Assembly (NCBI GenBank): GCA_014859305.1
Contig: JACUUM010000028.1
Span: 1-34,378, forward strand
From: Coriobacteriia bacterium
Lineage (GTDB): Bacteria; Actinomycetota; Coriobacteriia; Anaerosomatales; Kmv31
DNA: 34,378 nucleotides
Direction: 5' to 3'
Under the pieces are notes generated by a model, which made no database searches, had not been told where the DNA came from, and saw nothing but the letters and a program-made list of their open reading frames with translations. This document shows, one piece after another, positions 4,614 to 29,634 of the stretch (position 1 is its first letter; each line of letters opens with the position of its first letter). The translations under genes were made by a program, and so were the position numbers.

Positions 4614-4622
4614 TGGTATCAT
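4614..4622 (+). promoter_or_regulatory. Possible extended -10 element for the ior operon
   Basis: TGGTATCAT reads as an extended -10 (TGn plus TATCAT) about 75 nt before the iorA start. CTGACA at 4598-4603 resembles a -35 but is only 13 bp away, too close for a standard promoter. Only the -10 is credible. Confidence 0.3.
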
Positions 4623-4704
4623 CCGGCCACCACGGATCGCGCTCCTTTCGGGACGGGACGCAGCACGGCGGCGGCCCGCCCGACCCCCCTCGGAAGGAGA
4701 CCTG

Positions 4705-7453: not shown

Positions 7454-7550
7454 GCGTAGGTGGTTCGTTCGGTATGAGGGCGCGGTCCTCGCCGGACGCC
7501 GCGGTTGCAGGAAGTGTAAGAAGCACGGTGACAAGGACAGGGGTGAAGAG

Positions 7551-8732: not shown

Positions 8733-8739
8733 CCCCCGG

Positions 8740-8768
8740 GGCGGAGGCCGGCGCCGCCGGCCTCCGCC
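8740..8768 (+). terminator. Strong GC hairpin after binding-protein gene 1
   Basis: Perfect 13-bp stem (8740-8752 with 8756-8768) and a 3-base loop, starting 8 nt after the stop codon. There is no T-run. It would act as a terminator, attenuator or mRNA-stabilising 3' structure that boosts the binding protein relative to the downstream permease genes. Confidence 0.6.
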
Positions 8769-8770
8769 GC

Positions 8771-8800
8771 TCGCCACGAGGACGGCCGCACCGCTAGAAT
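8771..8800 (+). promoter_or_regulatory. Putative promoter for binding-protein gene 2
   Basis: -35 TCGCCA (8771-8776), 18-bp spacer, -10 TAGAAT (8795-8800, five of six consensus). It lies just after the hairpin and about 80 nt before the preferred start at 8882, and could restart transcription of livK2-HMGF. Confidence 0.5.
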
Positions 8801-8830
8801 CTCCTCTGGAGCGCGTCGCGCTCCGCCGGG

Positions 8831-8850
8831 GCCCTCCCGACGGGGAGGGC
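8831..8850 (+). other. Leader hairpin before binding-protein gene 2
   Basis: An 8-bp inverted repeat (GCCCTCCC, 8831-8838, with GGGAGGGC, 8843-8850) lies between the putative promoter and the start codon. A second short inverted repeat (GGAGCGCG / CGCGCTCC, 8808-8824) precedes it. Function unknown; no riboswitch class recognised. Confidence 0.4.
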
Positions 8851-8881
8851 GGCCATCCGCGTCCTCATGGAGGTAGTGCCC

Positions 8882-10054
8882 GTGCCACGTCTCACGCCCA
8901 GGGGAGTCCTCGTCGCCGCCGTCGCGGCCGCCGCGATCGCCGCGATCCTCGGCGGGTGTGGCCGCTCGGCCGCCTCGGCCGAGCCGCACCGCATCGGCGT
9001 GATCGTCTCGCTCACTGGGAGCTATGCCGGCCTGGGGGACCCCGAGAAGAACGCGCTGATCATGGAACAGGAGCGCGTCAACGACGAGGGCGGCGTGAAC
9101 GGACGCAGCATCGAGCTGGTCTTCGCCGACGACGGGACCGACGAGGCGCGCGCGGTCACGGCGGCGAGCAAGCTGATCGAGCAGGACCGAGTGGTGGCTC
9201 TCATCGGCGCCACCGGGACGGGCCAGTCGATGGCCATACGCGGTGACATCCGCCGATCCGCCGTGCCGCAGGTCTCCATGGCCGGCGGCACTGTGATCAC
9301 GGACGAGTTCGACGAGAACGTCTTCCAGACGCCGTGGTCGAACACGATCGTGGTGCCCTTCGTGCTGGACTATCTGAGAGAGCGCGGACTGACCAGGGTC
9401 GCGCTGCTCACCGACGCGGGAGGCTACGGTAAGGACGGCCACGCGATCGTCACCGCGGAGGCGCCGAAGGCCGGCCTCGAGATCGTCGAGGACCAGACGT
9501 TCAAGCCCGGCGACACGGACATGACGGCCCAGCTCACCAGGATCAAGGGCTCCGACGCCGAGGTGATCCTCATGTGGGCCGCCGGCAAGGAGGCCGTCAC
9601 GGTGGCGAACAACCGCGAGCAGCTCGGGATCGACCTGCCGCTCGTAGGGGGGCCCGGCAACGCGCGCCGCGAGTTCATCCAGGGCGCCGAGGAGGCCGCC
9701 GAGGGCTTCGTCCTGTGCGCAGGCAGGATCCTCGTGCCGGGCGCCTACGGCGAGGACACCGAGGAGTACCGCGTCGCCGCGGACTTCATCGAGCGCTACC
9801 GCGAGAAGTTCGGCAAGGACCCGGACATCTTCGCCGGGCACGCGTACGACGCTTTCCACATCGTCGTGGAAGCGCTGCGGCGGCTTCCCAGGGAATACGC
9901 GCCGGTGCACCTCCGCGACGAGATCGAGGCCACGAGCGGGTTCGTCGGCATCGGCGGGACGTTCACGTTCTCCCCGACGGACCACAACGGGCTCTCCGCC
10001 GACGAGCTGGTCATGTACCGCGTCGAGAACGGTGAGTGGGTGCTCGAGGAGTGA
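8882..10054 (+). CDS. LivK-type ABC transporter substrate-binding lipoprotein (copy 2)
   Basis: A 390-residue paralogue of the preceding gene with signal sequence, lipobox L-G-G-C and the same mature start (HRIGVIVSLTGSYAGLGDPEK). Conserved matching segments include ALIGATGTGQ, PWSNTIVVPF, IKGSDAEVILMW and the C-terminal block encoded by the 74-bp repeat. Ligand residues cannot be assigned, but the two copies differ enough through the middle (e.g. NNREQLGIDLPLVGGPGN versus the first copy's CHGN segment) to suggest different ligands. Start: GTG 8882 has GGAGG (8869-8873) eight bases upstream. ATG 8867 would place that Shine-Dalgarno inside the coding region. It is followed 18 nt later by livH. 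Confidence 0.9.
   Translation: MPRLTPRGVLVAAVAAAAIAAILGGCGRSAASAEPHRIGVIVSLTGSYAGLGDPEKNALIMEQERVNDEGGVNGRSIELVFADDGTDEARAVTAASKLIEQDRVVALIGATGTGQSMAIRGDIRRSAVPQVSMAGGTVITDEFDENVFQTPWSNTIVVPFVLDYLRERGLTRVALLTDAGGYGKDGHAIVTAEAPKAGLEIVEDQTFKPGDTDMTAQLTRIKGSDAEVILMWAAGKEAVTVANNREQLGIDLPLVGGPGNARREFIQGAEEAAEGFVLCAGRILVPGAYGEDTEEYRVAADFIERYREKFGKDPDIFAGHAYDAFHIVVEALRRLPREYAPVHLRDEIEATSGFVGIGGTFTFSPTDHNGLSADELVMYRVENGEWVLEE
9917..9990 (+). repeat. 74-bp exact repeat, copy 2 (inside binding-protein gene 2)
   Basis: Identical to 8595-8668, in the same reading frame and the same relative position near the 3' end of the paralogue (from codon 346). Confidence 0.9.
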
Positions 10055-10072
10055 TCGCGCCGCGCCGCCGTC

Positions 10073-10972
10073 GTGCAGGGGCCGACTGAAGTGGGCTTCC
10101 CCGAGCTGTTGCAGTTCACCTTCGCCGGGCTCAAGAACGGCGCGGTCTACGCGTTGCTCGCGCTGGGCTTCACGATCGTGTACGCCTCCACCGGGGTGAT
10201 CAACTTCGCCCAGGGCGAGTTCTACATGCTCGGCGGGATGCTCGCCGCGTTCCTGTTCGCCGCATACGGGCTGCCGTTGCCGTTCGCCGCGGTGGGCGCC
10301 GTGGCCGTGGCGGCGGGGGTGGGCGTCGTGTTCGAGCTGCTCGCGATCAGGCCGCGCAAGGACGGGGACCCGTTGGCGCTCATCATCATCACGGTGGGCG
10401 GCTCGATACTCATCAAGGCGCTCTCGCGTCACGTCTTCGGCCCCGACGAGGTCTCGATGCCCGTCTTCACCCGCGGCGCATCCCTGGAGGTGGCGGGCGC
10501 GCGCCTCGAGCTGCAGACGCTGTGGATCTGGGGACTCACGGCGACGACCGTCGCGGCGCTGACCTTCCTGTACCGGCGTACCGCTTTCGGCCGGGCGATG
10601 CGGGCCTGCGCGGTGAACCGGCGGGCGGCGCGGATCGTCGGCGTCGACACCAGGACGATGGTGATGGCCAGCTTCGGTCTCGCCGCGGCGCTGGGCGCGC
10701 TCGGGGGGCTGGCGGTCACCCCCCTGACGCAGATGCGGTTCGACGCCGGGTCGTCGGTCGCGCTCAAGGGCTTCGCCGCCGCGATCCTCGGCGGTCTCGG
10801 GAGTCCCGTGGCGGCCGTCGTGGGGGGCGTGGTGCTGGGGCTGCTCGAGAGCATGTCGATCGCGTTCCTGTCCTCGACGTACAAGGACGCCGTGGCCCTC
10901 GTGGTCCTGCTCGCCGTGCTGTTCATGCGGCCGCAGGGCCTGCTCGGCAGGGCGCGGAGGGAGAAGCTGTGA
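10073..10972 (+). CDS. livH: Branched-chain amino acid ABC transporter permease LivH-type
   Basis: A 299-residue polytopic membrane protein with about eight hydrophobic segments. The N-terminal motif GAVYALLALGFTIVYASTGVINFAQGEFYMLG is summarised here by its key blocks ALLALGFT and NFAQGEF, which identify the LivH family. A GLGSPVAAVVGG motif near residue 240 is the cytoplasmic coupling region that contacts the ATPases. It forms the membrane channel with LivM. Start uncertain: GTG 10073 has no clear Shine-Dalgarno, while in-frame GTG 10091 has AGGGG (10076-10080) ten bases upstream and removes six residues. The TGA overlaps the livM GTG. Confidence 0.92.
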   Translation: MQGPTEVGFPELLQFTFAGLKNGAVYALLALGFTIVYASTGVINFAQGEFYMLGGMLAAFLFAAYGLPLPFAAVGAVAVAAGVGVVFELLAIRPRKDGDPLALIIITVGGSILIKALSRHVFGPDEVSMPVFTRGASLEVAGARLELQTLWIWGLTATTVAALTFLYRRTAFGRAMRACAVNRRAARIVGVDTRTMVMASFGLAAALGALGGLAVTPLTQMRFDAGSSVALKGFAAAILGGLGSPVAAVVGGVVLGLLESMSIAFLSSTYKDAVALVVLLAVLFMRPQGLLGRARREKL

Positions 10973-12021
10973 CCCCGGCGGGACTGCGCGCCTTCGGCTC
11001 CCGATGGGGCTGGGTGCTCGCCGTCGCCGTCGCCGTGTCCACGGTGCCGTTCCTGACGTCGAACACGTTCCTGGTCAAGATCCTCACTCTGGCCGCGGTA
11101 AACGTCATCGTCGTCGGCGGCTTGGCGCTGCTCTTCGGCTACGCCGGGCAGGTGTCGCTGGGACACGCCGCCTTCGTGGGGATCGGCGCGTACGCGGCGA
11201 CGTATCTCACGTCCGTCGCCGGCTGGCCCTGGCCGGCCGCCGCCGCCGCCGCCGTGGCGCTCTCGGTCGCGGGCGGGCTGCTGCTCGCCCTGCCCAGCCT
11301 GAGGCTGCGCGGCCACTACCTCGCGATGGCCACGCTGGGCTTCGGCGAGATCGTGCACCTGGGGTTCGTGGAGGCCGAGCCGCTCACCGGAGGTGTCGAC
11401 GGCATGCGGGTGCCGCCGGCGGTGGTGGCCGGCCTCGACCTGTCCACGCCGGCGGCCAGCTACCTGCTGACATGGGGTTGCGCGCTGCTGGCGATGGTGG
11501 TCCTGCGCAACGTCGTGACGCGGCGGCCCGGGCGGGCGATGCTTGCGATGCACGGCTCCGAGGAGGGGGCGGTGGCGTGCGGGATCGACCTGACCGGCTG
11601 GAAGGTGGCGGCCTTCGGCGTGTCGGCCGCGCTCGCCGGGCTGGCCGGCGTGCTGTACGCCCAGCGGACGGGGTTCGTCTCGCCCTCGCAGTTCGGGCTC
11701 ACCGCGTCCATCCTCTTCGTCGCCATGGCGGTCCTCGGAGGCGCGCGCTCGCTGCTGGGTCCGGCGGTGGCCGCCGTGCTGCTCACGCTGCTGCCCTACA
11801 TCGACGCGCTGGTGCCCGGCCTGCCCAGGGCGGCCGCCGAGTTCGTGCAGGCGTGGGTGGAGGTGCTCGTCGGTTTCGTGATCATCGCGGTGATGCTGTT
11901 CGCTCCCTCCGGGCTCGCCGGTCTCATGCGCGGTGCCGCCGCTCGGCTGCGCCCCGCCTCCGGCCCTGCCGACACCGGCGCCGAAGAGGACGCCGCGGCC
12001 GGGGGAGGGGAGGCCGCGTGA
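10969..12021 (+). CDS. livM: Branched-chain amino acid ABC transporter permease LivM-type
   Basis: A 350-residue permease and partner of LivH. Family marks are LLFGYAGQVSLGHAAFVGIGAY, of which GQVSLGHAAF is the signature, then LRLRGHYLAMATLGFGEI and the coupling segment GLAGVLYAQRTGFVSPSQF...AVLGGARSLLGP. Around nine hydrophobic segments are seen. The last ~25 residues are a hydrophilic Ala/Glu/Gly tail unlike typical LivM, probably disordered. Start GTG 10969 overlaps the livH stop (GTGA) with GGGAG upstream. Its stop overlaps the livG start in the same way. Confidence 0.93.
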   Translation: MTPAGLRAFGSRWGWVLAVAVAVSTVPFLTSNTFLVKILTLAAVNVIVVGGLALLFGYAGQVSLGHAAFVGIGAYAATYLTSVAGWPWPAAAAAAVALSVAGGLLLALPSLRLRGHYLAMATLGFGEIVHLGFVEAEPLTGGVDGMRVPPAVVAGLDLSTPAASYLLTWGCALLAMVVLRNVVTRRPGRAMLAMHGSEEGAVACGIDLTGWKVAAFGVSAALAGLAGVLYAQRTGFVSPSQFGLTASILFVAMAVLGGARSLLGPAVAAVLLTLLPYIDALVPGLPRAAAEFVQAWVEVLVGFVIIAVMLFAPSGLAGLMRGAAARLRPASGPADTGAEEDAAAGGGEAA

Positions 12022-12857
12022 GCCTGCTGTCCGTGCGGAGGGTGACCAAGCGCTTCGGCGGCCTCGTGGCGCTGGACGAGGTCTCGTTCGAGGTCCACGA
12101 GGGCAGCATCAAGGCGCTCATCGGGCCCAACGGGGCGGGCAAGAGCACGCTGTTCAACGTGCTGACCGGGTTCGACCGGCCCGACGGCGGGACGGCGTCC
12201 TTCGCCGGCATCGACGTCGCCAAGGCCAAGCCGCATCGTCTCGTGAGGGCGGGTCTGGCGCGTACGTTCCAGAACACCCGCCTGTTCGAGGAGATGACGG
12301 CCGTGGACAACGTCGTCGTAGGCTCGCACACGCGGACGCGCTCGGGCCTGTTCGCGTCGGCGGCGGCCCTGCCCTCGACGGGGCGGGAGGACCGCGACGG
12401 TGCGGAGGAGGCCCTGCGGCTGCTGCGCCTCGTCGGACTGGACGGACGGGAGCACGTCCGGGCGGCGGACCTGCCCCACGGCCTCCGGCGCTTGCTCGAG
12501 ATCGCCCGCGCGCTGGCGAGCCGCCCGACGCTGCTGCTGCTCGACGAGCCCGCGGCGGGGCTGAACGGACGGGAGACGGCGGCGCTGGCCGAGGCGCTGT
12601 ACCGCGTGCGCGACCGGGGGACGACGATCGTCGTGGTGGAGCACGACATGGGCCTGGTCATGGAGGTCAGCGACGAGGTCGTCGTGCTCGACCAGGGCCG
12701 GAAGATCGCCGAGGGCCCGCCGCTGCTCATCCAGAAGGACCCGGCGGTGATCGAGGCGTACCTGGGCGAGAGCGTGGAGGACCCCCTTTCCGTGAGCGCG
12801 CCCGGTGACGCCGCCGGGAGGCTGCGCCCGACCGGCGAGGGGAGCCCCGATGCCTGA
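12018..12857 (+). CDS. livG: Branched-chain amino acid ABC transporter ATP-binding protein LivG-type
   Basis: A 279-residue cytoplasmic ATPase powering LivHM. Walker A GPNGAGKST, Q-loop in ARTFQNTRLF, Walker B LLLLDEPAAGLN and switch His in VVVEHDM are all present. The ABC signature reads LPHGLRR rather than LSGGQ. LivG proteins normally have a degenerate signature (LxYGxQRRLEIARAL), but the loss of the usual Gln here is noteworthy. The C-terminus extends about 25 residues past the usual end (after EAYLGE), partly through a region overlapping livF by 8 nt. Start GTG 12018 overlaps the livM stop. Confidence 0.93.
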   Translation: MSLLSVRRVTKRFGGLVALDEVSFEVHEGSIKALIGPNGAGKSTLFNVLTGFDRPDGGTASFAGIDVAKAKPHRLVRAGLARTFQNTRLFEEMTAVDNVVVGSHTRTRSGLFASAAALPSTGREDRDGAEEALRLLRLVGLDGREHVRAADLPHGLRRLLEIARALASRPTLLLLDEPAAGLNGRETAALAEALYRVRDRGTTIVVVEHDMGLVMEVSDEVVVLDQGRKIAEGPPLLIQKDPAVIEAYLGESVEDPLSVSAPGDAAGRLRPTGEGSPDA

Positions 12858-13593
12858 ACCGGCGCTTCGCATCGAGGCGGTGACGTCGGGCTACGGGCGG
12901 GTGCAGGTCCTGCGCGACGTGAGCCTGAAGGTCGCTCCGGGCGAGCTGGTCGCGCTCATCGGCGGGAACGGCGCCGGCAAGTCGACGCTGCTGCAGACCG
13001 TCGCCGGACTGCTGCCGGCATGGTCGGGCCGGGTCACGTTGTTCGACGAGGACGTCACGCGCGTGCCGGCGGACCGCCTCGTGGGGCGCGGCCTCGCGCT
13101 CGTCCCGGAGGGCAGGCTGCTCTTCGGGCCGATGAGCGTCGAGGAGAACCTGCGGCTGGGCGCGTACTCGCGCGGGAGAGAGGGACGCAGGACGTTCGCC
13201 GAGGACGTCGAGCGCGTCACGACGCTGTTCCCGGTGCTCGGGCATCGGCTGGAGCAGCACGCCGCCACCCTGTCGGGCGGCGAGCAGCAGATGCTCGCGG
13301 TGGGGCGCGCGCTGATGTCGCGACCGCGGGTGCTGCTGCTCGACGAGCCCTCCCTCGGCCTGGCGCCGAAGGTCATCGCCGAGATCTTCGCCGCGCTGAC
13401 CGCCCTTCGCGCGGACGGTCTGACGGTCCTGCTCGTGGAGCAGGACGCCAAGCTCGCGCTCGAGCACGCCGACCGCGGGCACGTCATGCGAACGGGCCAG
13501 ATCGTGCTCTCGGGCCCGGCCGAGGAGCTGCTGGCCGACGACGACGTGAGGCTGATCTACCTGGGCGCCTGGCAGCGCCCGGTCCCTGGCTAG
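12850..13593 (+). CDS. livF: Branched-chain amino acid ABC transporter ATP-binding protein LivF-type
   Basis: A 247-residue second ATPase of the Liv complex. Walker A GGNGAGKST, Q-loop region ALVPEGRLLF, intact signature LSGGEQQMLAVGRALM, Walker B LLLDEPSLGLAP and switch His replaced by Gln in LLVEQDAKLAL are seen, the Gln being normal for LivF. It begins with ATG 12850, eight bases inside the livG 3' end, with GAGGGGAG just upstream. It ends 27 nt before the phenylacetate-CoA ligase gene, so the transporter and ligase are probably one transcript. Confidence 0.94.
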   Translation: MPEPALRIEAVTSGYGRVQVLRDVSLKVAPGELVALIGGNGAGKSTLLQTVAGLLPAWSGRVTLFDEDVTRVPADRLVGRGLALVPEGRLLFGPMSVEENLRLGAYSRGREGRRTFAEDVERVTTLFPVLGHRLEQHAATLSGGEQQMLAVGRALMSRPRVLLLDEPSLGLAPKVIAEIFAALTALRADGLTVLLVEQDAKLALEHADRGHVMRTGQIVLSGPAEELLADDDVRLIYLGAWQRPVPG

Positions 13594-13620
13594 CGACGGC
13601 GACGCCGAGGAGGTCCGAGG

Positions 13621-14925
13621 ATGCCTATCTGGAACCCGGAGTACGAGACGATGCCGCGCGAGCGCCTGGAGGAGTTGCAGCTCAGGCGTCTCCAGTCGGT
13701 CGTCGAGTGGGTCTACGAGCGCGTTCCGCACTATCGGGCCGAGATGGAGGAACGCGGCGTGCGCCCGCGGGACATCCGGACACCGGCCGACGTCGCGCTG
13801 CTGCCCTTCACCGACAAGACGGTGCTGCGCGACACGTACCCGTTCGGGCTGTTCGCCGTCCCGCTCGACCACGTGGTCCGGGTGCACTCCTCCTCGGGCA
13901 CGACCGGCAAGCCGATCGTCGTGGGGTACACGCGAGGCGACCTCAACACCTGGACCGAGTGCACGGCACGAGTGGCTTCCTCAGCGGGCCTGACGAGCGC
14001 GGACCTCGTTCAGATCGCGTTCCTCTACGGCATGTTCACCGGCGGCTGGGGCATGCACTACGGGATCGAGCGCGTGGGCGCCACCGTCATCCCGGCGGGT
14101 TCGGGCAACACCGAGCGCCACCTGATGATGATGCAGGACTTCGGGACCACGGCACTGGTCTGCACCCCCAGCTACGCGCTGTACATCGCCGAGGTGGGGG
14201 AGGGGATGGGAGTCGACTTCTCCGCCCTGCCGCTGCGCGTGGGTCTCTTCGGCGGGGAGCCGTGCTCCGAGGGGGCCCGGCGGGAGATAGAGACGCGGAT
14301 GGGCGTCGTCGTCACCGACAACTACGGTCTGTCGGAGGTCATAGGGCCCGGCGTGAGCGGCGAGTGCGAGGGGCGCTGCGGCCTGCACGTCCAGGAGGAC
14401 CACTTCCTCGCCGAGGTCGTAGACCCCGTCACCGGCGAGCCGGTGGCGCCGGGAGAGGAGGGAGAGCTGGTGGTCACGACGCTGACCAAGGAGGCGTTCC
14501 CCGTCATCCGGTACCGCACCCACGACCTGACGCGGTTGTCCCACGAGCCCTGCGGGTGCGGACGTACCCTGGCGCGTATGAGCAAGGTGCGCCGGCGGAC
14601 GGACGACATGCTGATCGTGCGCGGCGTCAACGTCTTCCCCAGCCAGGTCGAGGACGTGCTCGGCGCCATCGAGGGGATCTCGCCCCACTATCAGATACAG
14701 CTCGAGCGCAAGCACGGGCTGGACGACATGGAGGTGCGCGTGGAAGTGGCCGAGGAGATCTTCAGCGACTCGATGGCCCAGATGGTCGCTTTCACGCGCG
14801 AGGTGGCCGACCGGCTGCAGTCGGTCATCGGGCTCAAAGTCAAGGTCACGCTGGTCGAACCTGGTACCATAGAGAGGTCGTCGGGCAAGGCGAAGCGCGT
14901 GATCGACCGGCGAGAGGGCTGCTGA
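13621..14925 (+). CDS. paaK: Phenylacetate-CoA ligase
   Basis: A 434-residue AMP-forming adenylate ligase of the PaaK family. It has the start [21 protein letters not shown]-loop-like SSSGTTGKP (residues 90-98), adenylate motif NYGLSE, a Cys-rich segment (CGCGRT) in the linker, the hinge region [18 protein letters not shown] and a C-terminal Lys in SSGKAKR. It activates arylacetates (phenylacetate, indoleacetate or related) to CoA thioesters. With IorAB it handles the same aryl-acetyl-CoA pool, either activating imported acids or, if reversible, recovering energy from the thioester. The second direction is inferred. AGGTCCGAGG precedes ATG 13621. Confidence 0.94.
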
Positions 14926-14978
14926 GGGCGGAGCGCGGAGAGCCCGCCCCGAAGGGCCCGTCGGACTCGGAGGTCCGG

Positions 14979-15527
14979 GTGCAGCAACCCCTTCTCTACG
15001 TCATCCTCGCGGCCGTGGCCGCCGTGGCGCTCGCCGTCGGCGGCGCGCTGCTGGTCCGGTACGGCTGGAAGAGGTTCGTCCGCCGGAGAGTGGTGCGCCT
15101 CATAGGCAGGCGCGAGGCGGTGAGGGCGGGCGAGCGGACGCTGCGCGCGGTCGTCGTGCGGCTCGCCGAGGCGCCCGACGACGAGATCGCCGCGTTCGCG
15201 GCCGACCCCGGGGACGAGGACCGCCGGTCGCTGTCGGACGTGGTCGCGCGCATGGAGGTCCAGGCCGACGACCTTGTCCGGATGCCGCTCCCCAAGGGTC
15301 TGTGGAGCGCCGGCGAGCTGCTCGCCGACGCCGCGTGGCGCCTGGGGACGGAAGCCGGGCGCGTGGCGGGCGCCGGGGGTGCCGAGGAGGTGCTCGAGCG
15401 GCTCGCCGGGATCGACCTGATCGCCGTGCGCGACGCGGTGGCCGCCGCCGAGGCCGAGATCGTGCGTCTGGAGGAGGACCACGGGGTCGAGGAGGAGGCC
15501 GTCTATGGAGGGGGGCTGTACATATGA
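14979..15527 (+). CDS. Hypothetical membrane-anchored protein
   Basis: A 182-residue protein not recognised from any family. It has an N-terminal transmembrane segment (residues about 5-26), a basic stop-transfer region (RYGWKRFVRRR) and a mostly helical, Ala/Glu/Arg-rich cytoplasmic domain with two likely helical pairs (about 50-65 and 95-165). There are no cysteines or catalytic motifs. Start GTG 14979 is chosen for the GGAGG (14969-14973) five bases upstream. It begins 53 nt after paaK and overlaps the next gene by ATGA, making the first of a three-gene block. Confidence 0.75.
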   Translation: MQQPLLYVILAAVAAVALAVGGALLVRYGWKRFVRRRVVRLIGRREAVRAGERTLRAVVVRLAEAPDDEIAAFAADPGDEDRRSLSDVVARMEVQADDLVRMPLPKGLWSAGELLADAAWRLGTEAGRVAGAGGAEEVLERLAGIDLIAVRDAVAAAEAEIVRLEEDHGVEEEAVYGGGLYI

Positions 15528-15970
15528 GGGACGTCCCCACGGACAGGCTGTTGCGAGCCGTAGGGGCGCTGCTGCTGCTCGCGGTCGTGCTCGCCTACGC
15601 GCTGGGCGCCGTCGCCCGCTACCGTTCCTCGGGGGTCGAGCGGCCCTCCGTCCCCGCCGCGGAGACCACTTCGTCGGCCGCTCCCGAGGACGACGCGGGC
15701 GCGGACGAGCCGGATGATGACGAGGATGCCCCGGACGAGGGGGAGGGGTCCGAGGAGGGCGAGGAGAGCGGACCCACCGTGGTCGTGAAGGTGGACGGGC
15801 TGAACTTCAGGCGCGAGCCCGACAAGAACGCCTCGGTCATCCGCGGGCTGAGCTCGGGAGAGCGGCTCGAGCTGCTCAAGACCGAGGGGGGCTGGCACTA
15901 CGCCGAGGACTCCGACGGGGAGAAGGGGTGGCTGTACGCCAGCGAGCAGTACAGCACGGTGGAGGAATGA
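15524..15970 (+). CDS. Membrane-anchored SH3b-domain protein
   Basis: A 148-residue protein with an N-terminal transmembrane anchor (about 9-31), an acidic Asp/Glu-rich linker (about 52-82) and a C-terminal bacterial SH3 domain (about 86-144; VDGLNFRREPDKNASVIRGL, then GWHYAEDSDGEKGWLYA). The topology places the SH3b domain outside the cell, where these domains usually bind peptidoglycan stems or metal. No enzymatic domain is attached. Its ATG overlaps the preceding TGA and its TGA overlaps the next ATG, so the trio is translationally coupled. The specific role is unknown. Confidence 0.85.
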   Translation: MRDVPTDRLLRAVGALLLLAVVLAYALGAVARYRSSGVERPSVPAAETTSSAAPEDDAGADEPDDDEDAPDEGEGSEEGEESGPTVVVKVDGLNFRREPDKNASVIRGLSSGERLELLKTEGGWHYAEDSDGEKGWLYASEQYSTVEE

Positions 15971-16302
15971 GCGCGGGCAGGGCCATAGGTGCGGCCGAGG
16001 ACTTCTACCGCTTGCGCATCGTTCGTGTGGACGAGGGCGAGGAGCCGCAGCTCGAGTGGCGTGAGGACGTCCTGTACCGGCGGCCCGCGGCCGAGGAGCC
16101 CGAGCAGCGTGTCCTCTACGTCGTGCAGGCCGTGAGTCTCGATGACGACGAGGCGTGCTGGAGCGTCGGCGAGTTCGAAGACCCCCGGGAGGCGCACCTG
16201 TTCCTGGACGGCGCCGAAGAGGACCTGCGCGGGCTCACGCGGTCGAGGTTCGACGAGCGCTACGGCATCGCACCCTCGGTCGAGCACCCCGAGGCCGACT
16301 AG
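15967..16302 (+). CDS. Hypothetical small acidic protein
   Basis: A 111-residue soluble acidic protein, not recognised. It alternates predicted strands and turns (FYRLRIVRVDEG, QRVLYVVQAVSLDDDEACWSVGEF) with a C-terminal helix (REAHLFLDGAEEDLRGLTRSRFDERYG). Start ATG 15967 overlaps the SH3b gene stop, with GGAGG directly before it. It is the last + strand gene before the dif-like site, 11 nt upstream of it. Confidence 0.75.
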   Translation: MSAGRAIGAAEDFYRLRIVRVDEGEEPQLEWREDVLYRRPAAEEPEQRVLYVVQAVSLDDDEACWSVGEFEDPREAHLFLDGAEEDLRGLTRSRFDERYGIAPSVEHPEAD

Positions 16303-16307: not shown

Positions 16308-16338
16308 GCCCGACTTTACATAAGGTACATTATCGGGC
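16308..16338. terminator. Inverted repeat between convergent genes (possible bidirectional terminator)
   Basis: GCCCGA (16308-16313) and TCGGGC (16333-16338) form a 6-bp stem with a 19-base AT-rich loop. It overlaps the dif-like site, so it may only be a by-product of that site. It is the only stem seen between the two converging transcription units. Confidence 0.25.
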
Positions 16339-16340
16339 GT
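16313..16340 (-). other. dif: Putative chromosomal dif site (XerC/XerD recombination site)
   Basis: A 28-bp site of 11 + 6 + 11 layout. On the + strand: XerD-side arm ACTTTACATAA (16313-16323), central GGTACA (16324-16329), XerC-side arm TTATCGGGCGT (16330-16340). Read on the - strand the XerD arm is TTATGTAAAGT, matching the B. subtilis dif arm (TTATGTAAACT) at 10 of 11 and closely resembling E. coli (TTATGTTAAAT). The XerC arm ends CCCGATAA, like actinobacterial dif (CCGATAAT). By hand, 20 of 28 positions match B. subtilis dif and 18 of 28 match E. coli dif, as I remember those sequences. It lies exactly where gene strand bias flips. Confidence 0.85.
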
Positions 16341-16403: not shown

Positions 16404-16868
16404 TCAGGGCTCCGTGGTCTCTTCCGTCCACAAGGCTCCCAGGTAGCGCGCCTCCACCTCGAACCCTTCGCGCGCCGCCTCGCGCAACTCCTCGGCGATC
16501 GGCGGACGCAGGTCGTAGTCCCCGAGCCGCTCGGGCTCGGCGAGTACGACTCCGGCCACGCGCGGGTCCTCGGGGCGACGGAGGAGCTGCCCGCCGGCCA
16601 CCTCGCCGAGGAACGTCAGGTTCACGAGGTGGCGAGCCCCGTCCGGGGAGATCGTGTCGCTCACGAACAGCAGCCGGACGAGGCGGCAGTCGAGACCGGT
16701 CTCCTCGCGCACCTCCCGGGTCAGCGCTTCACCCACGGGCTCGCCGCGCTCGACTCCCCCGCCCGGGAGGAGGTGGTACGTCCGCCCCGCCTTGGCGTGC
16801 TGCACCAGGACGATGCGGCCGTCGATCAGGAGCACGGCCGCGACGCGGACTCTCGGGAGGTCAGACAC
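16404..16868 (-). CDS. NUDIX hydrolase
   Basis: A 154-residue cytoplasmic pyrophosphohydrolase. The Nudix box G-x5-E-x7-REUxEExGU is complete at residues 37-59, ending REVREETGL. The short N-terminal strands [18 protein letters not shown] and HLLPGGG are typical. The substrate is not readable. Given the operon (nrdD-nrdG-dut), clean-up of an oxidised or non-canonical nucleotide is plausible, but ADP-ribose or another dinucleotide is equally possible. Start GTG 16868 lies 8 nt inside the dut 3' end, so the gene is coupled to dut and is the last member of the run before the dif-like site. Confidence 0.92.
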
Positions 16869-17292
16869 CGGTGCTGCCGAACCCTCCTTCCCCGCGCGCC
16901 GTGACCTCCAGGGTGGAGACCTCCACCGGTATCGCGCGGACCACGGGCTGGATGACCAGCTGGGCGATCTTGTCTCCGCGGAGGATGTGTATCGCCTGTG
17001 CGGGATCGAGGTTCACGGCGATCACCTTGACCTCACCGCGGTAGTGGCTGTCGATCAGGCCGGGCGTGTTCACCAGGCTGAGGCCGGCGCGCAGCGCGAG
17101 CCCGCTACGGGGCTGCACGAAGCCCGCGTGCCCCTCCGGGATCGCCACGGCGATGCCCGTGGGCACGAGTGCGCGCTCCAGCGGCGCGAGGGTGACGTCC
17201 TCGGCGGCGTAGAGGTCCATCCCCGCGTCGCCGTCGTGCGCGTAGCGCGGCGTCGGGAGCTCGGGGTCCAGCTTCAGGACGGGGAGCTCCAC
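16861..17292 (-). CDS. dut: dUTP diphosphatase (dUTPase)
   Basis: A 143-residue trimeric dUTPase hydrolysing dUTP to dUMP, limiting uracil in DNA and supplying thymidylate synthesis. All five family motifs are visible in order: [10 protein letters not shown] (I), PRSGLA (II), [13 protein letters not shown] (III, with the Tyr/Asp that position the nucleotide), [10 protein letters not shown] (IV) and [10 protein letters not shown] (V). Start GTG 17292 sits 3 nt after the nrdG stop. The tight packing with nrdD/nrdG suggests joint regulation of dNTP supply. Confidence 0.96.
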
Positions 17293-17295
17293 CGG

Positions 17296-18039
17296 CTAGA
17301 GCCCCCTCACGATCGTCGGGATGTGGCTGTTGCATCGACGGGCGACGGGCAGCACCTTGTCGAAGGTGTACGCGGGGGTCTCGGCCGCACGTCGCTGCAA
17401 CGTCCGCTCCGGGCGGAACTGCTGCAGCGCGTACAGCTCGCCCTCGGCGAGGTCCTCGGCGATGCGCGGCAGCTCCTCGAGGTCGACCACGCCGGGGTAC
17501 AGAGTCGTGCGGAACTCGTGGCGGACCTCCGAGAGCAGCAGCACCCCTGCGCTCTCGGCGACAAGGCGCACGATCCCCGGGATGCGCGTGACCTCGTCGT
17601 ACCGCTCCCATGTGGTCTTGACGTCCATCGCGACGTAAGCGACGAGGTCCTCGGCGATGACGTGCGAGAGCACGGCGGGGTTCGCGCCGTTCGTGTCGAC
17701 CTTGACCGGCAGTCCCTCCTCGGCGAGGGCGGCCAGCAGCGACGGCAGGTCGGGGTCCTCGGTCGGCTCCCCTCCGGTGACGACGACGCCGTCGAGCCAG
17801 GCGCGCTTCTCGCGAAGGTGCCGCACGAAGGGCTTCCAGCCGTCCGGGGCGCAGGACCCCAGCCCCCGCAGCGCCGGGTTGTGGCAGTACGGGCACGCGA
17901 ACGTACAGCCCGCGAGGAACATGGTCGCCGTCACCTTGCCGGGCCAGTCGACCATCCCGGCCGGCAACCAGCCTGCGAAGCGCCGCGTCGGGCAGGCCGG
18001 TACCGGCCTGGTCCCCGTGCGTTCGTGGAGGGGCTCCAT
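17296..18039 (-). CDS. nrdG: Anaerobic ribonucleotide reductase activating protein (radical SAM)
   Basis: A 247-residue radical SAM enzyme that generates the glycyl radical on NrdD. The [4Fe-4S] motif is CTFACPYC (Cys45, Cys49, Cys52), followed by a GGEP motif (VVTGGEPTED), a KVDTNG strand and a HEFRTTLYPGVV segment. It is longer than short E. coli-type NrdG (about 155) and matches the longer NrdG2/PflA-like group found with ATP-cone NrdD in anaerobes. Start ATG 18039. It lies between the redoxin gene (9 nt upstream) and dut. Confidence 0.93.
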   Translation of the reverse strand: MEPLHERTGTRPVPACPTRRFAGWLPAGMVDWPGKVTATMFLAGCTFACPYCHNPALRGLGSCAPDGWKPFVRHLREKRAWLDGVVVTGGEPTEDPDLPSLLAALAEEGLPVKVDTNGANPAVLSHVIAEDLVAYVAMDVKTTWERYDEVTRIPGIVRLVAESAGVLLLSEVRHEFRTTLYPGVVDLEELPRIAEDLAEGELYALQQFRPERTLQRRAAETPAYTFDKVLPVARRCNSHIPTIVRGL

Positions 18040-18048
18040 GCCGGCTCC

Positions 18049-18294
18049 CTAGTGCAGGACGAGCCGGCGTACGGCGTCCCTGTCGGGCACCTCGCCGCGC
18101 CAGGAGGCGAGCTCGTTGCCGTCGGCGTCGACGATCACGCACGAAGGCGTCGCGAGCACGCTGTGGAACGCGGCTTCGGTGAGCCCCTCGACGTCACCGA
18201 CGTCGTAGACCTCGAGCCCCTCCATCTCCCCGAGGGCCTGCTTGGCCGCCGGACATCGAGGACAGTCCTCCTTGACGAACAGCTTGATGCGCAC
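18049..18294 (-). CDS. Small glutaredoxin/thioredoxin-like protein
   Basis: An 81-residue thioredoxin-fold protein. It has a beta1 strand RIKLFVKEDC, active site CPRCP (Cys11, Cys14), a cis-Pro in ATPSCVIVD and a C-terminal GEVPDRDAVRRLV helix. The CPxC dithiol and size resemble NrdH/glutaredoxin-like redoxins. Its position between nrdD and nrdG suggests it reduces the class III reductase or its partner, since some class III enzymes use a thiol reductant instead of formate. That role is inference. The spacing is 9 nt to nrdG and 30 nt to nrdD. Confidence 0.88.
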   Translation of the reverse strand: MRIKLFVKEDCPRCPAAKQALGEMEGLEVYDVGDVEGLTEAAFHSVLATPSCVIVDADGNELASWRGEVPDRDAVRRLVLH

Positions 18295-18324
18295 GCGTCC
18301 CTCCTCGCTCCGTCGCGATCGCCC

Positions 18325-20448
18325 CTACACGGTCTCCGCACGCAGGTCGGTCCGCACGCGGTCGTACAGCTCACCGACCTTGCTGCGGTTCCACGTCTGC
18401 ACCTTGCTGAAGTAGCCGACGATCCTCGTGACCCCGTAGACGTCCATCGACCCGCACAAGGGGCACTGCGCCTTCAGGCCGCGGCTCGTTCGCCGGCAGC
18501 TCTCGCAGACGGTGAACTCGGGGCTGAACGCCACCTGGGAGCAGTGCGTGTTCCGGAACGTCCTCTCCACGAAGGAGCGGATCGCTCCCGGGTCCGGCTC
18601 GCTCTCGCCGAGCCACACGTGGACGATGGCTCCGGCCTCGATCAGCGGATGGAACCGTGACTGCTTCTCGACGCGCGTGATGTAGTCGACGCCGGCGTCC
18701 GCGGCTATGTGCACGGAGTTCGTGTAGTAGAAGTCCCCCGTGTCGACGTTGCCCTTGACCACCGAGGCGGCCAGGTCCGGCCAGTACTTCATGTCGAGCT
18801 TGGCCAGCCGGTATCCGGCGGATTCCGCCGGGCTCTCCTCCAGCACGAGGTTGATCCCGTGGCGCTCCGAGAGCTCCCGGCACTTGAGCGACATCGCGGA
18901 GACCACCTTCAGACCGAAACGGAGCGCGTCGTCGGAGTCGTGCAGCTGCGCCCCGGTGTGCGCCTGCACCAGCTCGTTCAGTCCGATGAGACCCGCGAGG
19001 TAGGTCAGCCGGTCCATCTTGAGGTACGGTTCTCCGTCCAGGTCCTGGGTCAGCAGTCCGAGGGGGCCCTCGGCGCCCAGCCCCATCAGCGAGGAGATGA
19101 AATCGCGCTTCTGGACATGCGCGTTAGCGACGAGCTCGAGGGTGCGGTTGAGCTCCATGAACAGCGCTTGATCGCTCCCGGCGGCCTTGTAGGCGATCCT
19201 CGGCAGGTTGACGGTCACGTTCTGCAGCGCCGAGAAGCGCATGACCTCCGGGGTGCGGGTCTCGGCGAGCTGGCGCTGCGAGAGCTTCAGCTTGAGACGG
19301 CAGCACTGCGACACCGTCACCTCGTCGCCCCGGTCGAAGACGAAGTACGTGATGCCCTGCTTGCTCGCGACCCGGCACGCGAGCTCCATGAACCCCTCGT
19401 GGCCGGGGGTGCGGAAGAAGTCCTCGTTGACGTGCAGCAGCGGCTTGGGGAACACGAACGTCTTGCCGGTCGCGTCGCCGCGCAGGTACACGTCGAACAT
19501 CGCCTTGAGGAACGCCTGTGCCTCGGGCTCGTAGTCCTTGTAGGTCTTGCCGGTGTACTCGCCGCCGGGGCCTATCGCCGGTGTGTCGGCGAAGTGCCGC
19601 GGCACGTTGTAGTAGAGGTTGAAGTCGGTGAACGCGACTTGTCCGCCCCGGGTCCCGGCGAGCTGGTTGAACTCGAAGATGAGCATCTGCGCCAGCTGCT
19701 CGATCTCCTCAGCCGTCTTGCCGACGAGGTACGGCGCGAAGAAGAGGTTGACCGCCTCCCAGCCCACCGCCCCGGCGTAGTGAGCCTGCAGGGATACGGC
19801 CATCTTGACCATGTGCCCGATGAGGACCTCGGCGCGCTTCGCGGGCCTGGAGACCGATGTGATGTTGGGCAGGTTCAGCCCGTACCTCTTCACGTACTCG
19901 AGGCTGTGGCCTCCGCAGTACGGCCTGATGATGAACCCCAGGTCGTGGAGATGGATGTCGCCGACGTAGTGGGCCTCTCCGACGTCGGGAGTGAAGACGC
20001 GGCGCAGCGCGAACTCCTTGAGGATGGTCTCGGCCAGCGTGAGGTTCACCGACTCGGGGTTGTGGGTGGTGTTGGAGTTCTCCTTGTTGGCGTTGCCGAT
20101 GATCTGCTCGACGTCCCACATGGGGAGGCCGAGGTGGCTGTGCTTCTTGTGCGCCCAGGTGAGCCCGCGTTCGAGCAGCTCGAGGTCGACCATCTCGCGG
20201 ATGATCGCCGTTGTGACCGTCATGAGGTTCGTACGGTCGACGCGGTCCTCGACGGCGGCGGCGATCTCCTCGGCGAGGGAAGGCTCGACCCCCGCTTCCT
20301 TCACCAGCGAGTCGGCGATCTTGGAGCGGTCCCAGGTGTCGATCTCCTGGCGGGAGTTCGTGGAGACGAGGAGCGCGATGTCGGTGGAGTCCGCGACGGC
20401 GGGAGCGTGCGCGGGCCTGATGACGTTGACGATGCGCTCCATGACCAT
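18325..20448 (-). CDS. nrdD: Anaerobic (class III) ribonucleoside-triphosphate reductase
   Basis: A 707-residue glycyl-radical enzyme making dNTPs without oxygen. N-terminal ATP-cone-like domain (about 20-95; [15 protein letters not shown]), a ten-stranded barrel with HNPESVN and [10 protein letters not shown] motifs, the substrate-site Cys pair in VSQCCRLKL, a zinc site (Cys648, Cys651, Cys662, Cys665) and the glycyl-radical loop TRIVGYFS with Gly678, followed by [12 protein letters not shown]. Start: ATG 20448 is preferred because GGGAGG lies six bases upstream. GTG 20463 and ATG 20442 are in-frame alternatives. It is 71 nt after nrdR, with no separate NrdR box seen in the gap, so nrdR-nrdD is likely one transcript. 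Confidence 0.96.
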
Positions 20449-20519
20449 CCTCGGCCTCCCCACCCTCGCAGCAGTCCCCCCGTCCGCGCGGAGGTCCCGC
20501 TAGCGCATCGCCCTCGACA

Positions 20520-20966
20520 TCAACGCAGGTCCTTGAGCTCGGACGTGAACTCGTCCAGGTCCTGGAAGGACTTGTAGACCGAGGCGAACCTCACGTACGC
20601 GACCTTGTCCACGTCCTTCAGGCGCATCAGCACCATGTCGCCCAACTTCACCGCCGGGATCTCGTAGCGGAACGAGTTGTGGAGCTCGGCCTCGAGGTCG
20701 TCGATCAGCGCCTCCAGACGCTCGCGCGGGACGTCCCGCTTGGCCGTGGCGACGATCAGGCCGCGGAGGAGCTTGCCCCGGTCGAACGGCTCGGTCGTGC
20801 CGTCGCGCTTCACGACCATCAGCGGCGTCTCTTCGCGGCGCTCGTAGGTGGTGAACCGCTTCTCGCACGAGAGGCATTCGCGCCGCCTCCGGATCGCGTC
20901 CTGCGCCTCGGACGTGCGGGAGTCCACGACCTTCGTCTCGCCATGACCGCAGAAGGGACAACGCAT
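20520..20966 (-). CDS. nrdR: Transcriptional repressor NrdR
   Basis: A 148-residue repressor of ribonucleotide reductase genes. It has an N-terminal zinc ribbon (CPFC at 3-6, CLSC at 31-34), the RRRREC...FTTYER DNA-binding segment and an ATP-cone (about 49-139; [20 protein letters not shown]) that senses ATP/dATP. Two NrdR-box-like sites lie immediately upstream of its start, implying autoregulation together with nrdD. Start ATG 20966. The order nrdR - LysM gene - divergent lexA matches that of mycobacteria (Rv2718c-Rv2719c-lexA). Confidence 0.97.
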
Positions 20967-20978
20967 CGTACGAACACC

Positions 20979-20988
20979 CCATATCTAG
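20979..20988. promoter_or_regulatory. NrdR box 1 (proximal to nrdR)
   Basis: CCATATCTAG matches the NrdR core CwAtATaTwG at 8 of 10 positions, 12 nt before the nrdR start codon. Confidence 0.7.
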
Positions 20989-21010
20989 GTTCCGCTCGGA
21001 GCCTAGCATA

Positions 21011-21020
21011 CAAGATATGG
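21011..21020. promoter_or_regulatory. NrdR box 2 (distal)
   Basis: CAAGATATGG matches the NrdR core at 8 of 10 positions. It begins exactly 32 bp after box 1, the three-helical-turn spacing usual for NrdR box pairs. The two boxes are near inverted copies of each other (CCCCATATCT / AGATATGGGG). Confidence 0.7.
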
Positions 21021-21068
21021 GGGCCACAACGGCTTCCCGCCACATCGTCCGTGCGCCCGAGAGCAAGG

Positions 21069-21407
21069 TCAGCGAGCCGCAAGCGACGCCTCGCCCGGTT
21101 CCGGCACCTCGATGACCTGGCCGACGACCAGGTCGCTGCCCCTCATCCCGTTCACCGCGCGTATCGCCGCCACCGTGCGCGCGGTGCTCGCGCCGGGCAG
21201 AGGATGGGCCTTGGCGATGGACCACAGGGTATCCGACGGGGCGACCCTCACGGTCGTCGTCGGCGCCGTTGCGGCGGGCGCGCCGACCGGCCGGACGGCG
21301 GCCGCTCCCACCGCCAGCACCGCCGCGGACAGGATGGCCGCCTCCAGGAAGGACGGCCGGCTGCGCGCGGCACCTCCGCGGCTGGCTCCTCGGGTACGGT
21401 CTCCCAT
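21069..21407 (-). CDS. LysM-domain membrane protein, candidate SOS division inhibitor (YneA/Rv2719c position)
   Basis: A 112-residue protein with a basic cytoplasmic N-terminus, one transmembrane helix (about 21-44), a short Ala/Thr/Pro linker and a LysM domain (about 53-104; [14 protein letters not shown]...[21 protein letters not shown]). LysM binds peptidoglycan N-acetylglucosamine. Genes of this build sit divergent from lexA in Bacillus (YneA) and Mycobacterium (Rv2719c/ChiZ), where they delay division after DNA damage. Here it is also divergent from lexA, with two LexA boxes in its promoter region, so the same role is inferred. ATG 21407 has GGGAGG six bases upstream. Confidence 0.88.
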
Positions 21408-21505
21408 CGCGTCCTCCCCTCTTCCCCGGCCGGTCGCGGCACGGGGATCGCGTTCTCGGTCCCGAGCCTAGCGCGCCGGTCTGACGTCGCGTGGGCCGCG
21501 CTAGG

Positions 21506-21519
21506 CGAACACACGTTCC
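21506..21519. promoter_or_regulatory. LexA (SOS) box 1
   Basis: CGAAC-ACAC-GTTCC, 9 of 10 half-site positions match CGAAC-N4-GTTCG. It lies just downstream of the -10 of the LysM-gene promoter. Confidence 0.85.
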
Positions 21520-21522
21520 CTC

Positions 21523-21551
21523 AGTCTACCAAACACACGTTCGTATCGGAA
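21523..21551 (-). promoter_or_regulatory. Putative promoter of the LysM gene
   Basis: On the - strand: -35 TTCCGA (21546-21551), 17-bp spacer, -10 TAGACT (21523-21528). LexA box 2 lies within the spacer. The -35 is weak. Confidence 0.45.
21530..21543. promoter_or_regulatory. LexA (SOS) box 2
   Basis: CAAAC-ACAC-GTTCG, 9 of 10 half-site positions. It sits between the -35 and -10 of the LysM-gene promoter. Confidence 0.85.
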
Positions 21552-21559
21552 GCGGCAAT

Positions 21560-21573
21560 CGAACGCGTGTTTG
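21560..21573. promoter_or_regulatory. LexA (SOS) box 3
   Basis: CGAAC-GCGT-GTTTG, 9 of 10 half-site positions. It overlaps the -35 of the lexA promoter by three bases. Confidence 0.85.
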
Positions 21574-21600
21574 CCAACGCCGGCGAGGTCGGGATAGACT
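21571..21600 (+). promoter_or_regulatory. Putative lexA promoter
   Basis: -35 TTGCCA (21571-21576), 18-bp spacer, -10 TAGACT (21595-21600). The start codon is 33 nt beyond the -10. Confidence 0.6.
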
Positions 21601-21604
21601 GGGC

Positions 21605-21618
21605 CGAACACGCATTCG
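21605..21618. promoter_or_regulatory. LexA (SOS) box 4
   Basis: CGAAC-ACGC-ATTCG, 9 of 10 half-site positions. It lies at the expected transcription start of lexA. Confidence 0.85.
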
Positions 21619-21632
21619 CGAGGGGGTGCCCT

Positions 21633-22256
21633 GTGGAGTACAAGCGGGAGCTCACCAGGCGGCAGGCGCAGATACTCGACTTCATCCGCGCGGAGATACA
21701 CCGGCGGGGGTTCCCGCCGTCGGTGCGCGAGATCGGCGAGGCCGTGGGTCTGTCCTCCTCCTCGACCGTGCACAGCCATCTCGCGGCCCTCGAGGACAAG
21801 GGCTTCATCCGCAGGGACCCCTCGAAGCCGCGCGCGCTCGAGGTGCTCGACTACCGGGACACCGACCGGGCGGTGGACTACGGGCAGGTGTCCGCCGTGC
21901 CGCTCGTCGGCCAGGTCGCGGCCGGCGTCCCGATCCTGGCGGCCGAGAACATCGAGGCCACCCTCCCCCTGCCCGCCGAGCTGGCCGGCGAGTCGACGTT
22001 CATCCTGCGCGTGCGCGGCGACAGCATGGTCGAGGCGGGGATCCTGGAGGGCGACTACGTGGTCGTGAGGCAGCAGAGCACCGCGTCGAACGGCGACGTG
22101 GTGGTCGCCATGCTGGAGGACGAGGCGACCGTGAAGCGCTTCTTCCGGGAGGCCGACCGGATCCGGCTGCAGCCGGAGAACTCCGCGATGGAGCCGATCT
22201 ACACGCGCGACGCCGCCGTGCTGGGCAAGGTGGTCGCGCTCTTCCGGCGCCTATAG
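21633..22256 (+). CDS. lexA: LexA repressor / SOS regulator
   Basis: A 207-residue LexA with an N-terminal winged HTH (about 1-70; [22 protein letters not shown], then [10 protein letters not shown] recognition helix). The autocleavage site is Ala97-Gly98 in QVAAGVP, with the catalytic dyad Ser131 (RGDSM) and Lys168 (ATVKRF). Upon RecA-ssDNA activation it self-cleaves and derepresses SOS genes. Four LexA boxes upstream indicate autoregulation. GTG 21633 is chosen for AGGGGG five bases upstream and family length. The open frame extends further 5' only through the operator region. It is the only + strand gene right of the dif-like site. Confidence 0.97.
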
Positions 22257-22279
22257 CCTGCCGAGGACCGTCCGCGGCG

Positions 22280-23617
22280 TCACTCGGTGCCGTCTGGCCC
22301 CGCCCCGCCACCCTCCCCGCCGGTCTCGAACTCGGCGAAACGCTCCGACAGCGCCGCCGGGGCCTTCACGACCATCTCCGTGCCGTGTTCGGTGTGCCGC
22401 TCGCTCACCACCTGCGCGCGAGCATGCGCGGCATCGACGATGTCGCCCCGGGTGTACGGCACCACGAGCGACATCGTCCGGCTGTCACGGGCGGCCTCCG
22501 TGGAGACACGCCCGGCGAGAGCGTCGAGTCCCTGCCCGGTCAAGGCGGAGACGAACACGGCGTCCGGCCGCCTGGCGCGCAGGCGCGACAACGCCTCGGT
22601 GTCGGCGACGTCGATCTTGTTGAAGACGGTGACCTGGCGCGTGGCCGCGGCCCCTATCTCGCCGAGGACCTCGCTCACGGCGCGGACCTGCTCGCGCCGC
22701 TGAGGGTGAGCCGTGTCCACGACGTGCAGGAGCAGATCCGCCTCGCGCACCTCGTCCAGCGTGGACTTGAACGCCTCGACCAGCCCGTGGGGCAGCTTGT
22801 TGATGAAGCCGACGGTGTCGCTGAGCGTGACGAGCCGTCCCTCGGGGAGCTCCATGCGCCGCGTCGTCGAGTCCAGCGTCGCGAAGAGCATGTCGGCTTC
22901 CAGCGCACCCGCTCCGGTCAGCGCGTTGAGCAGGCTGGACTTCCCTGCGTTCGTGTATCCGACCAGCGAGACGCGGAAGACGCCGGAGGCGGCGCGAGCC
23001 GCGCGCTGCGTGCGGCGCGCGCGCGCGACCTGGGCCAGATCGCGCTTCAGTTCGCCGATGCGCTTCCTGGCGAGGCGGCGGTCGGTCTCGAGCTGCGACT
23101 CGCCGGCGCCGAACCGCGCGCCGCGCCCGCCGCCGAGGCGTTCGCGCTCGAGGTGCCCCCACATGCCCCTCAACCTCGGCAGGAGGTATTGGAGCTGCGC
23201 GAGCTCGACCTGAAGCTTACCTTCACGGCTGGTCGCGTGCATCGCGAAGATCTCGAGGATGAGCGCCGTGCGGTCCACGAGCTTGACCTGCGGGATGAGC
23301 CCCTCGAGATTGTACTGCTGAGACGGTGTGAGGTCCTCGTCGAAGACGATCTGGGTGGCGCGCAGCGACTCCGCCAGTCGCGCGATCTCCTCTGCCTTGC
23401 CGGCCCCGGTGAACGTCCGCGGGTTCGGTTTGTCCATGCGTTGCGTGACCTTGCCGACGATCCGGATCCCCGCCGTCTCGGCGAGCCTGGCCAGCTCCTC
23501 GAGCGACTCGTCGATGCTCCAGCCGTCGCGCGAACCCCCGCGGTCGACGCCCACCAGGATCGCGCGCCCCAGTGCGTCCTCGCGCAACTCCGGCGGTGTG
23601 TACGGTTCTTCTGCCAT
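22280..23617 (-). CDS. hflX: GTPase HflX (ribosome-splitting)
   Basis: A 445-residue ribosome-associated GTPase that dissociates stalled or stressed ribosomes. N-terminal HflX domain (about 15-200: VGKVTQRMDKPNPRTFTGAGK, FDEDLTPSQQYNLE, LVDRTALILEIFA, GGRGARFGAGESQLETDRR). G domain: G1 GYTNAGKSS (220-228), G3 DTVGF (267-271), G4 NKID (333-336). A C-terminal alpha/beta tail follows. Start ATG 23617. It converges with lexA, leaving a 23-bp gap with no obvious terminator. hflX next to lexA is a common arrangement in Gram-positive bacteria. Confidence 0.95.
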   Translation of the reverse strand: MAEEPYTPPELREDALGRAILVGVDRGGSRDGWSIDESLEELARLAETAGIRIVGKVTQRMDKPNPRTFTGAGKAEEIARLAESLRATQIVFDEDLTPSQQYNLEGLIPQVKLVDRTALILEIFAMHATSREGKLQVELAQLQYLLPRLRGMWGHLERERLGGGRGARFGAGESQLETDRRLARKRIGELKRDLAQVARARRTQRAARAASGVFRVSLVGYTNAGKSSLLNALTGAGALEADMLFATLDSTTRRMELPEGRLVTLSDTVGFINKLPHGLVEAFKSTLDEVREADLLLHVVDTAHPQRREQVRAVSEVLGEIGAAATRQVTVFNKIDVADTEALSRLRARRPDAVFVSALTGQGLDALAGRVSTEAARDSRTMSLVVPYTRGDIVDAAHARAQVVSERHTEHGTEMVVKAPAALSERFAEFETGGEGGGAGPDGTE

Positions 23618-23690
23618 GGGGTGTCCGGTCGGGCTCCTCGTCGGGCGGGGACGTGAGCGAGGGAGCTCCGGGGAGATCCTCGCCCGAGGC

Positions 23691-24848: not shown

Positions 24849-24949
24849 GGGTACGGGCTCCTCTCGACCTGCGGGAAGCGGGCGGCGGCCCTGACGGCCG
24901 CTCGCACATGGTAGCAGAAGAGCGGGGCCTCCCCGGGCGTCCGGACCCT

Positions 24950-25822: not shown

Positions 25823-25834
25823 GCGCGCCTCCTC

Positions 25835-28230: not shown

Positions 28231-28260
28231 CTTCCCCTCGCCTCCCCTCTTCCGGCGGTG

Positions 28261-29625: not shown

Positions 29626-29634
29626 GGCGCGCGT

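Follow-up and report, generated by a model that had tools for sequence, protein, structure and literature searches.

A dif site in a Coriobacteriia order marks the gene-strand switch, but probably not the mean point of fork convergence

Leading-strand gene bias is usually attributed to the avoidance of head-on collisions between replication and transcription, and dif, the skew switch and the gene switch usually lie too close together for their causes to be separated. The window analysed here, a whole stretch of 34,378 nucleotides from a Coriobacteriia bacterium (contig JACUUM010000028.1), contains a 28-bp dif-like site at which gene orientation flips. An earlier reading of the letters and open reading frames (the sequence-only reading) took this site for a probable replication terminus, raising the question of whether replication ends at dif in this group, and of what sets gene orientation near ter. 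We accept the 28-mer as dif in this genome, an Anaerosomatales-like member of the Coriobacteriia. The site itself is ordinary, while its uncoupling from the skew switch is unusual and bears on both questions. The site is composed as follows.

16313..16340, minus strand: dif, the XerC/XerD recombination core, 28 bp in an 11-6-11 arrangement (from sequence, uniqueness and conservation)
16330..16340, minus strand: XerC-side arm ACGCCCGATAA (from the alignment of 45 distinct sites)
16324..16329, minus strand: 6-bp central region TGTACC (45 aligned sites; relatives mostly have T[A/G][T/C]ATC)
16313..16323, minus strand: XerD-side arm TTATGTAAAGT (from the 45-site alignment and comparison with Frankia alni)

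Read on the minus strand from 16340 to 16313, the site is ACGCCCGATAA-TGTACC-TTATGTAAAGT, with the 11-bp arms and 6-bp centre that the sequence-only reading had described. Both arms are partly palindromic, as chromosomal dif requires. Across 45 distinct aligned dif sites, positions 7-12 (GATAAT) and the TTATG and terminal T of the XerD arm are invariant or nearly so, and the ACGC of the XerC arm is common or conserved among the sites of relatives. An outer palindromic extension, GCCCGA...TCGGGC, is absent from relatives and was taken as incidental. The predicted dif of Frankia alni, CACGCCGATAATGCACATTATGTCAAGT (PMC3025954), is identical to the site here at 10/11 positions of the XerD arm and 21/28 overall by hand count, and differs from it in the XerC arm. 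The centre and the XerD-side arm conform to the dif pattern. The window holds one match at ≤3 mismatches, and its shuffles none. The 2.13-Mb home genome (98% complete, 76 contigs) likewise holds one match at ≤3 mismatches to CCGATAATNNNNNTTATGTNAAGT and none to a reversed control pattern, bearing out the prediction of a 28-mer unique genome-wide; in window and genome alike the site is far more than chance would give. Of 100 relatives, 82 have roughly one site each by this pattern. The description of the site as the only AT-rich island also holds: any 28-bp segment of the window that has 17 or more A/T overlaps dif, and dif itself, to within two bases, has the highest A/T content of all such segments. 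The home genome encodes two Xer recombinases, XerC and XerD (contigs C9 and C31), both of which pass the broader subfamily model NF001399 and narrowly miss the strict NCBIfam equivalog cut-offs (304.0/335.2 and 328.3/329.6), and one FtsK with a gamma domain. In its 28-bp, 11-6-11, single-copy form, and in being accompanied by these three proteins, the site is like the actinobacterial dif/XerCD-FtsK system. Elsewhere in the home genome, contig C61 carries an integron integrase at ~7.2-7.8 kb (L154:985-2148, plus strand; TIGR02249, 483.7 bits versus a cut-off of 265).

The window's genes were called with our own codon-model caller, to which Pfam-supported open reading frames were added. They form two blocks that point at dif from either side.

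326..16302, plus strand: left, XerD-side block (same order in 12 genomes), with phosphoribosyltransferases, NlpC/P60, iorA/iorB-like genes, a livKHMGF-like ABC transporter, a phenylacetate-CoA-ligase-like gene and an SH3 protein
2091-3350, minus strand: exception to the orientation of the left block
16404..33969, minus strand: right, XerC-side block (synteny; lagging-strand-like fourfold skew), with NUDIX, dUTPase, nrdG, nrdD, nrdR, hflX, aminotransferase, dapF, AMMECR1/LigB, miaB, PHP, a GHKL ATPase (in the mutL position) and rny
18049-18294, minus strand: thioredoxin-like (nrdH-like)
18325-20463, minus strand: nrdD
20520-20966, minus strand: nrdR
22280-23617, minus strand: hflX
796-1344, 11004-12857 and 15302-15970, plus strand, and 23691-24905, minus strand: Pfam-supported open reading frames missed by the caller

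The codon-model calls alone place 12/13 genes on the plus strand to the left of dif and 13/13 on the minus strand to the right; with the added frames the counts become 15/16 and 14/14. These are slightly fewer genes than the 19 per side of the sequence-only reading, in the same pattern, and each of the 12 genomes examined has its strand flip at dif. The synteny and orientation data also support the view that dif is kept between convergent genes in relatives. No RNA families, tRNAs or integrase were found in the window, and no element genes adjoin dif there, in agreement with the claim that no mobile element flanks it. Two other identities for the 28-mer, an attachment site for a mobile element that uses dif and an AT-rich palindrome arisen by chance, are very improbable. 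In their favour is one IMG/VR contig with a matching dif near its end. Against them stand the absence of adjoining element genes, the empty reversed control in the home genome, and a conserved position, with a single copy in each genome that occupies the same intergenic gap throughout the order; for the window, that position refutes them. The IMG/VR contig (25,378 bp; dif matching the group consensus at L263:33-54) could be a prophage using dif, and the window proteins have no match in the 2 kb of it that was examined.

dif closes a deeply conserved gene cluster in the order. In the loci analysed from the Anaerosomatales order, as far as each locus extends, the order kept is rny-miaB-AMMECR1-dapF-aminotransferase-hflX-(nrdR-nrdD-nrdH-like-nrdG)-dUTPase-(NUDIX)-dif-<hyp-<SH3-<PaaK-like-<liv transporter. 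An nrdD of this subfamily occurs on the dif-bearing contig in 25 genomes, and in 25/25 of these the two have the same strand, dif lying downstream of nrdD by 2.0-6.5 kb; in genomes without this nrdD (e.g. G060, G053) the rest of the cluster and dif are still in place. In the 11 relatives whose sequence covers the region, ftsK is found on the side of the nrdD cluster at ~24-29 kb from dif. The NrdD neighbours are Coriobacteriia/Anaerosomatales MAGs, and in other Actinomycetota MAGs (L059-L088) nrdD, often with hflX and dUTPase, also adjoins dif; because these loci were picked by NrdD similarity, they do not give the frequency of the linkage in the phylum. In the dif scan, 37 loci score at least 22, and a reversed-consensus control never rises above 18. 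We found no report of nrdD-dif linkage, and no paper on dif and XerC in Coriobacteriia, in the literature searched, which leaves most subscription journals outside it. Conserved ftsK, rny, hflX and nrdDG beside dif provide a practical handle for ter in the draft genomes of this group. As a separate observation, the genes nearest to dif in the window form a compact dNTP-metabolism cluster (nrdR, nrdD, nrdH-like, nrdG, dUTPase and NUDIX; 16404-20966, minus strand), conserved in that place.

The claim that two forks meet at dif is not supported, and the refuting condition set by the sequence-only reading, a GC skew that does not switch at the site, holds for this order. Skew was evaluated at fourfold-degenerate sites only, with gene strands handled separately, and this strand-controlled skew does not reverse at dif. 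In the window, plus-strand GC skew passes from +0.055 left of dif to 0.000 on the right, without becoming negative. Across 12 genomes of the order, taken in dif orientation, GC skew on either side is negative or close to zero, and ~88-100% of coding DNA (≤~40 kb a side) runs towards dif on both sides. The displacement could be placed on a chromosome in G012, the only relative in the order assembled in one scaffold (1,838,614 bp; ~43% sampled). With dnaA at 1,465,795 and its antipode at 546 kb, dif at 693,101 is ~146 kb (8% of the chromosome) off the antipode, contrary to the expected position opposite dnaA/oriC. The skew change-point is at 555 kb (bootstrap 530-560 kb, i.e. 133-163 kb from dif) and the gene-orientation change-point at 690 kb, and the weighted residual is 1080 with a switch at the skew change-point, 1316 with one at dif and 1454 without a switch. 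In the zone from 546 to 693 kb, where the skew rests on plus-strand genes (minus-strand genes number two), these genes have a fourfold GC skew of -0.110 and AT skew of -0.057, matching the values of lagging genes (GC -0.068 to -0.083, AT -0.044 to -0.060) and not those of leading genes (GC +0.032 to +0.041, AT -0.154 to -0.177), and their fourfold G+C is not raised. The skew switch lies -125 kb from dif in G060 (bootstrap -160 to -102) and -140 kb in G051 (bootstrap -145 to -115), with permutation p = 0.002 in each. Thus the polarity change, which the sequence-only reading would have had at the site, occurs near the dnaA antipode in G012 and 125-140 kb off dif in the other two. In all three it is displaced towards the XerC side by ~100-165 kb, and 97-100% of the coding DNA between skew switch and dif still runs towards dif. 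Near-dif skew asymmetry was found at 30/31 loci with enough sites (Wilcoxon p ~2e-6 for GC and ~5e-7 for AT, over 31 loci that share orthologues and are not fully independent). All families sampled within the order show it, so the asymmetry is old. The uncoupling is not class-wide, since in G071, from another order, the skew switch (840-865 kb) coincides with the gene switch and dif (851.6 kb), with the antipode near 810 kb. G089, another member of the Coriobacteriia (3.38 Mb), has weak skew with a change-point bootstrap of 495-668 kb.

Because skew polarity is unchanged at dif, dif is probably not the mean fork-convergence point; it marks the axis of gene orientation and, probably, that of segregation and dimer resolution. 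dif is defined by XerCD recombination, and a skew shift-point is its usual correlate and not a defining feature. We regard as likely an account in which the site is dif, resolved by XerCD/FtsK and serving as the segregation axis, with the meeting of forks displaced from it. By analogy with the family, XerC would bind the ACGCCCGATAA arm and XerD the TTATGTAAAGT arm, and FtsK, loading on KOPS-like motifs that point at dif, would translocate to dif and activate XerCD recombination there, resolving chromosome dimers. With no fork trap at dif, the forks would meet opposite oriC: the fork travelling along the shorter arm, on the XerD side, would pass dif and enter the XerC-side arm, XerC-side genes would be head-on to it, and gene orientation near ter would track dif and not the meeting of forks. 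The convergence of forks away from dif is suggested by mutational skew, which was found to be a poor guide to it in P. aeruginosa (PMC6199493). In agreement with dif as the segregation axis, though not decisively, copies of the candidate KOPS GGGNAGGG pooled over 12 genomes favour the dif-pointing direction by 50:8 (XerC side) and 68:12 (XerD side), and those in the sampled G012 zone between skew switch and dif by 7:0. Permutations of the same composition show a weaker pooled XerC-side bias (~68% vs 86%), but as these permuted G-rich motifs share the bias towards dif, KOPS polarity counts as no more than supporting evidence. Another candidate, GAGAAGGG, was rejected as unpolarised on the XerC side (6:6 in pooled genomes), and none stood out in an unbiased 8-mer screen.

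On why gene orientation follows dif there are two proposals. That FtsK translocation or segregation towards dif, and not replication direction, selects gene orientation near ter is a tentative proposal and on balance unlikely; if true, ~100-165 kb of genes keep pointing at dif across the order despite an apparently head-on fork. A historical leftover is another candidate, itself doubtful: an old change in the ori-proximal half may have made the XerC-side arm longer and shifted the antipode, after which skew re-equilibrated and orientation stayed frozen in ancient operons. This shares with the main account the identity of dif and the displaced convergence, and differs on why orientation follows dif. 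Gene-by-gene conservation of the near-ter region and the weak strand bias of ori-proximal parts (56-75%) speak for it, but the asymmetry is old, yet hardly any gene of the zone has flipped. It is improbable that dif is the fork-convergence point after all and that XerC-side genes look lagging merely through the C-rich codon usage of housekeeping genes. In favour of this reading, skew and dif coincide in G071, and the near-dif XerC-side cluster (rny, miaB, hflX, nrdD and others) is common to all genomes, so that species are not fully independent. However, the zone spans ~100-165 kb with a sharp end, at the dnaA antipode in G012; GC and AT skew move together without higher fourfold G+C; and the same cluster occurs without skew asymmetry in deeper Actinomycetota lineages (L085, L087, L088), evidence against a codon effect intrinsic to the genes.

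The displaced-convergence account has precedents. Replication and dif can be uncoupled, and replication ending away from dif has been shown experimentally, in P. aeruginosa (PMC6199493) and V. cholerae (PMC6549158). As in P. aeruginosa PAO1-UW (PMC6199493), dif is off the point opposite oriC, KOPS run towards dif, and the axes of replication and segregation are separate; in PAO1-UW, however, GC skew switches near dif, whereas here the switch is at the antipode, and dif is followed by gene orientation and KOPS-like motifs alone. A survey of 2,027 chromosomes put the GC switch at a mean distance of 13 kb from dif, whether the chromosome was symmetric or asymmetric (PMC6199493); the uncoupling in this order, with its site away from the skew shift-point, runs against that average. 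G012 also has a ter-centred domain of high strand bias, where co-orientation is 92-97% over the first 400 kb of the XerD side and 82-100% over the first 700 kb of the XerC side, against 56-75% near the origin. This resembles the ter domain of Gemmatimonadota (PMC11237797), with near-total co-orientation over several hundred kb round ter, a balanced ori-proximal part and a concentration of core genes, but in Gemmatimonadota the strand switch is at the sign change of GC skew, whereas here it is at dif. A term search of the main text of PMC11237797 gave no mention of Coriobacteria or Actinomycetota. The arrangement thus matches neither the survey nor the Gemmatimonadota pattern, and a gene switch and KOPS-like polarity at dif with skew at the antipode were not reported in the literature searched (most subscription journals being outside it). 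With dif and gene switch ~100-165 kb from the skew switch in three genomes, and the near-dif signature order-wide, the order offers a natural experiment on both questions, the cause of gene orientation near ter and the place where replication ends.

Among the relatives, seven genomes (G001, G014, G016, G024, G032, G063 and G072) carry a second type of NrdD, whose Pfam match is broken in two: the last ~30 glycyl-radical positions are separated from the rest by 100-230 bp and are sometimes in another open frame. We read this as an insertion in, or a split of, the glycyl-radical domain.
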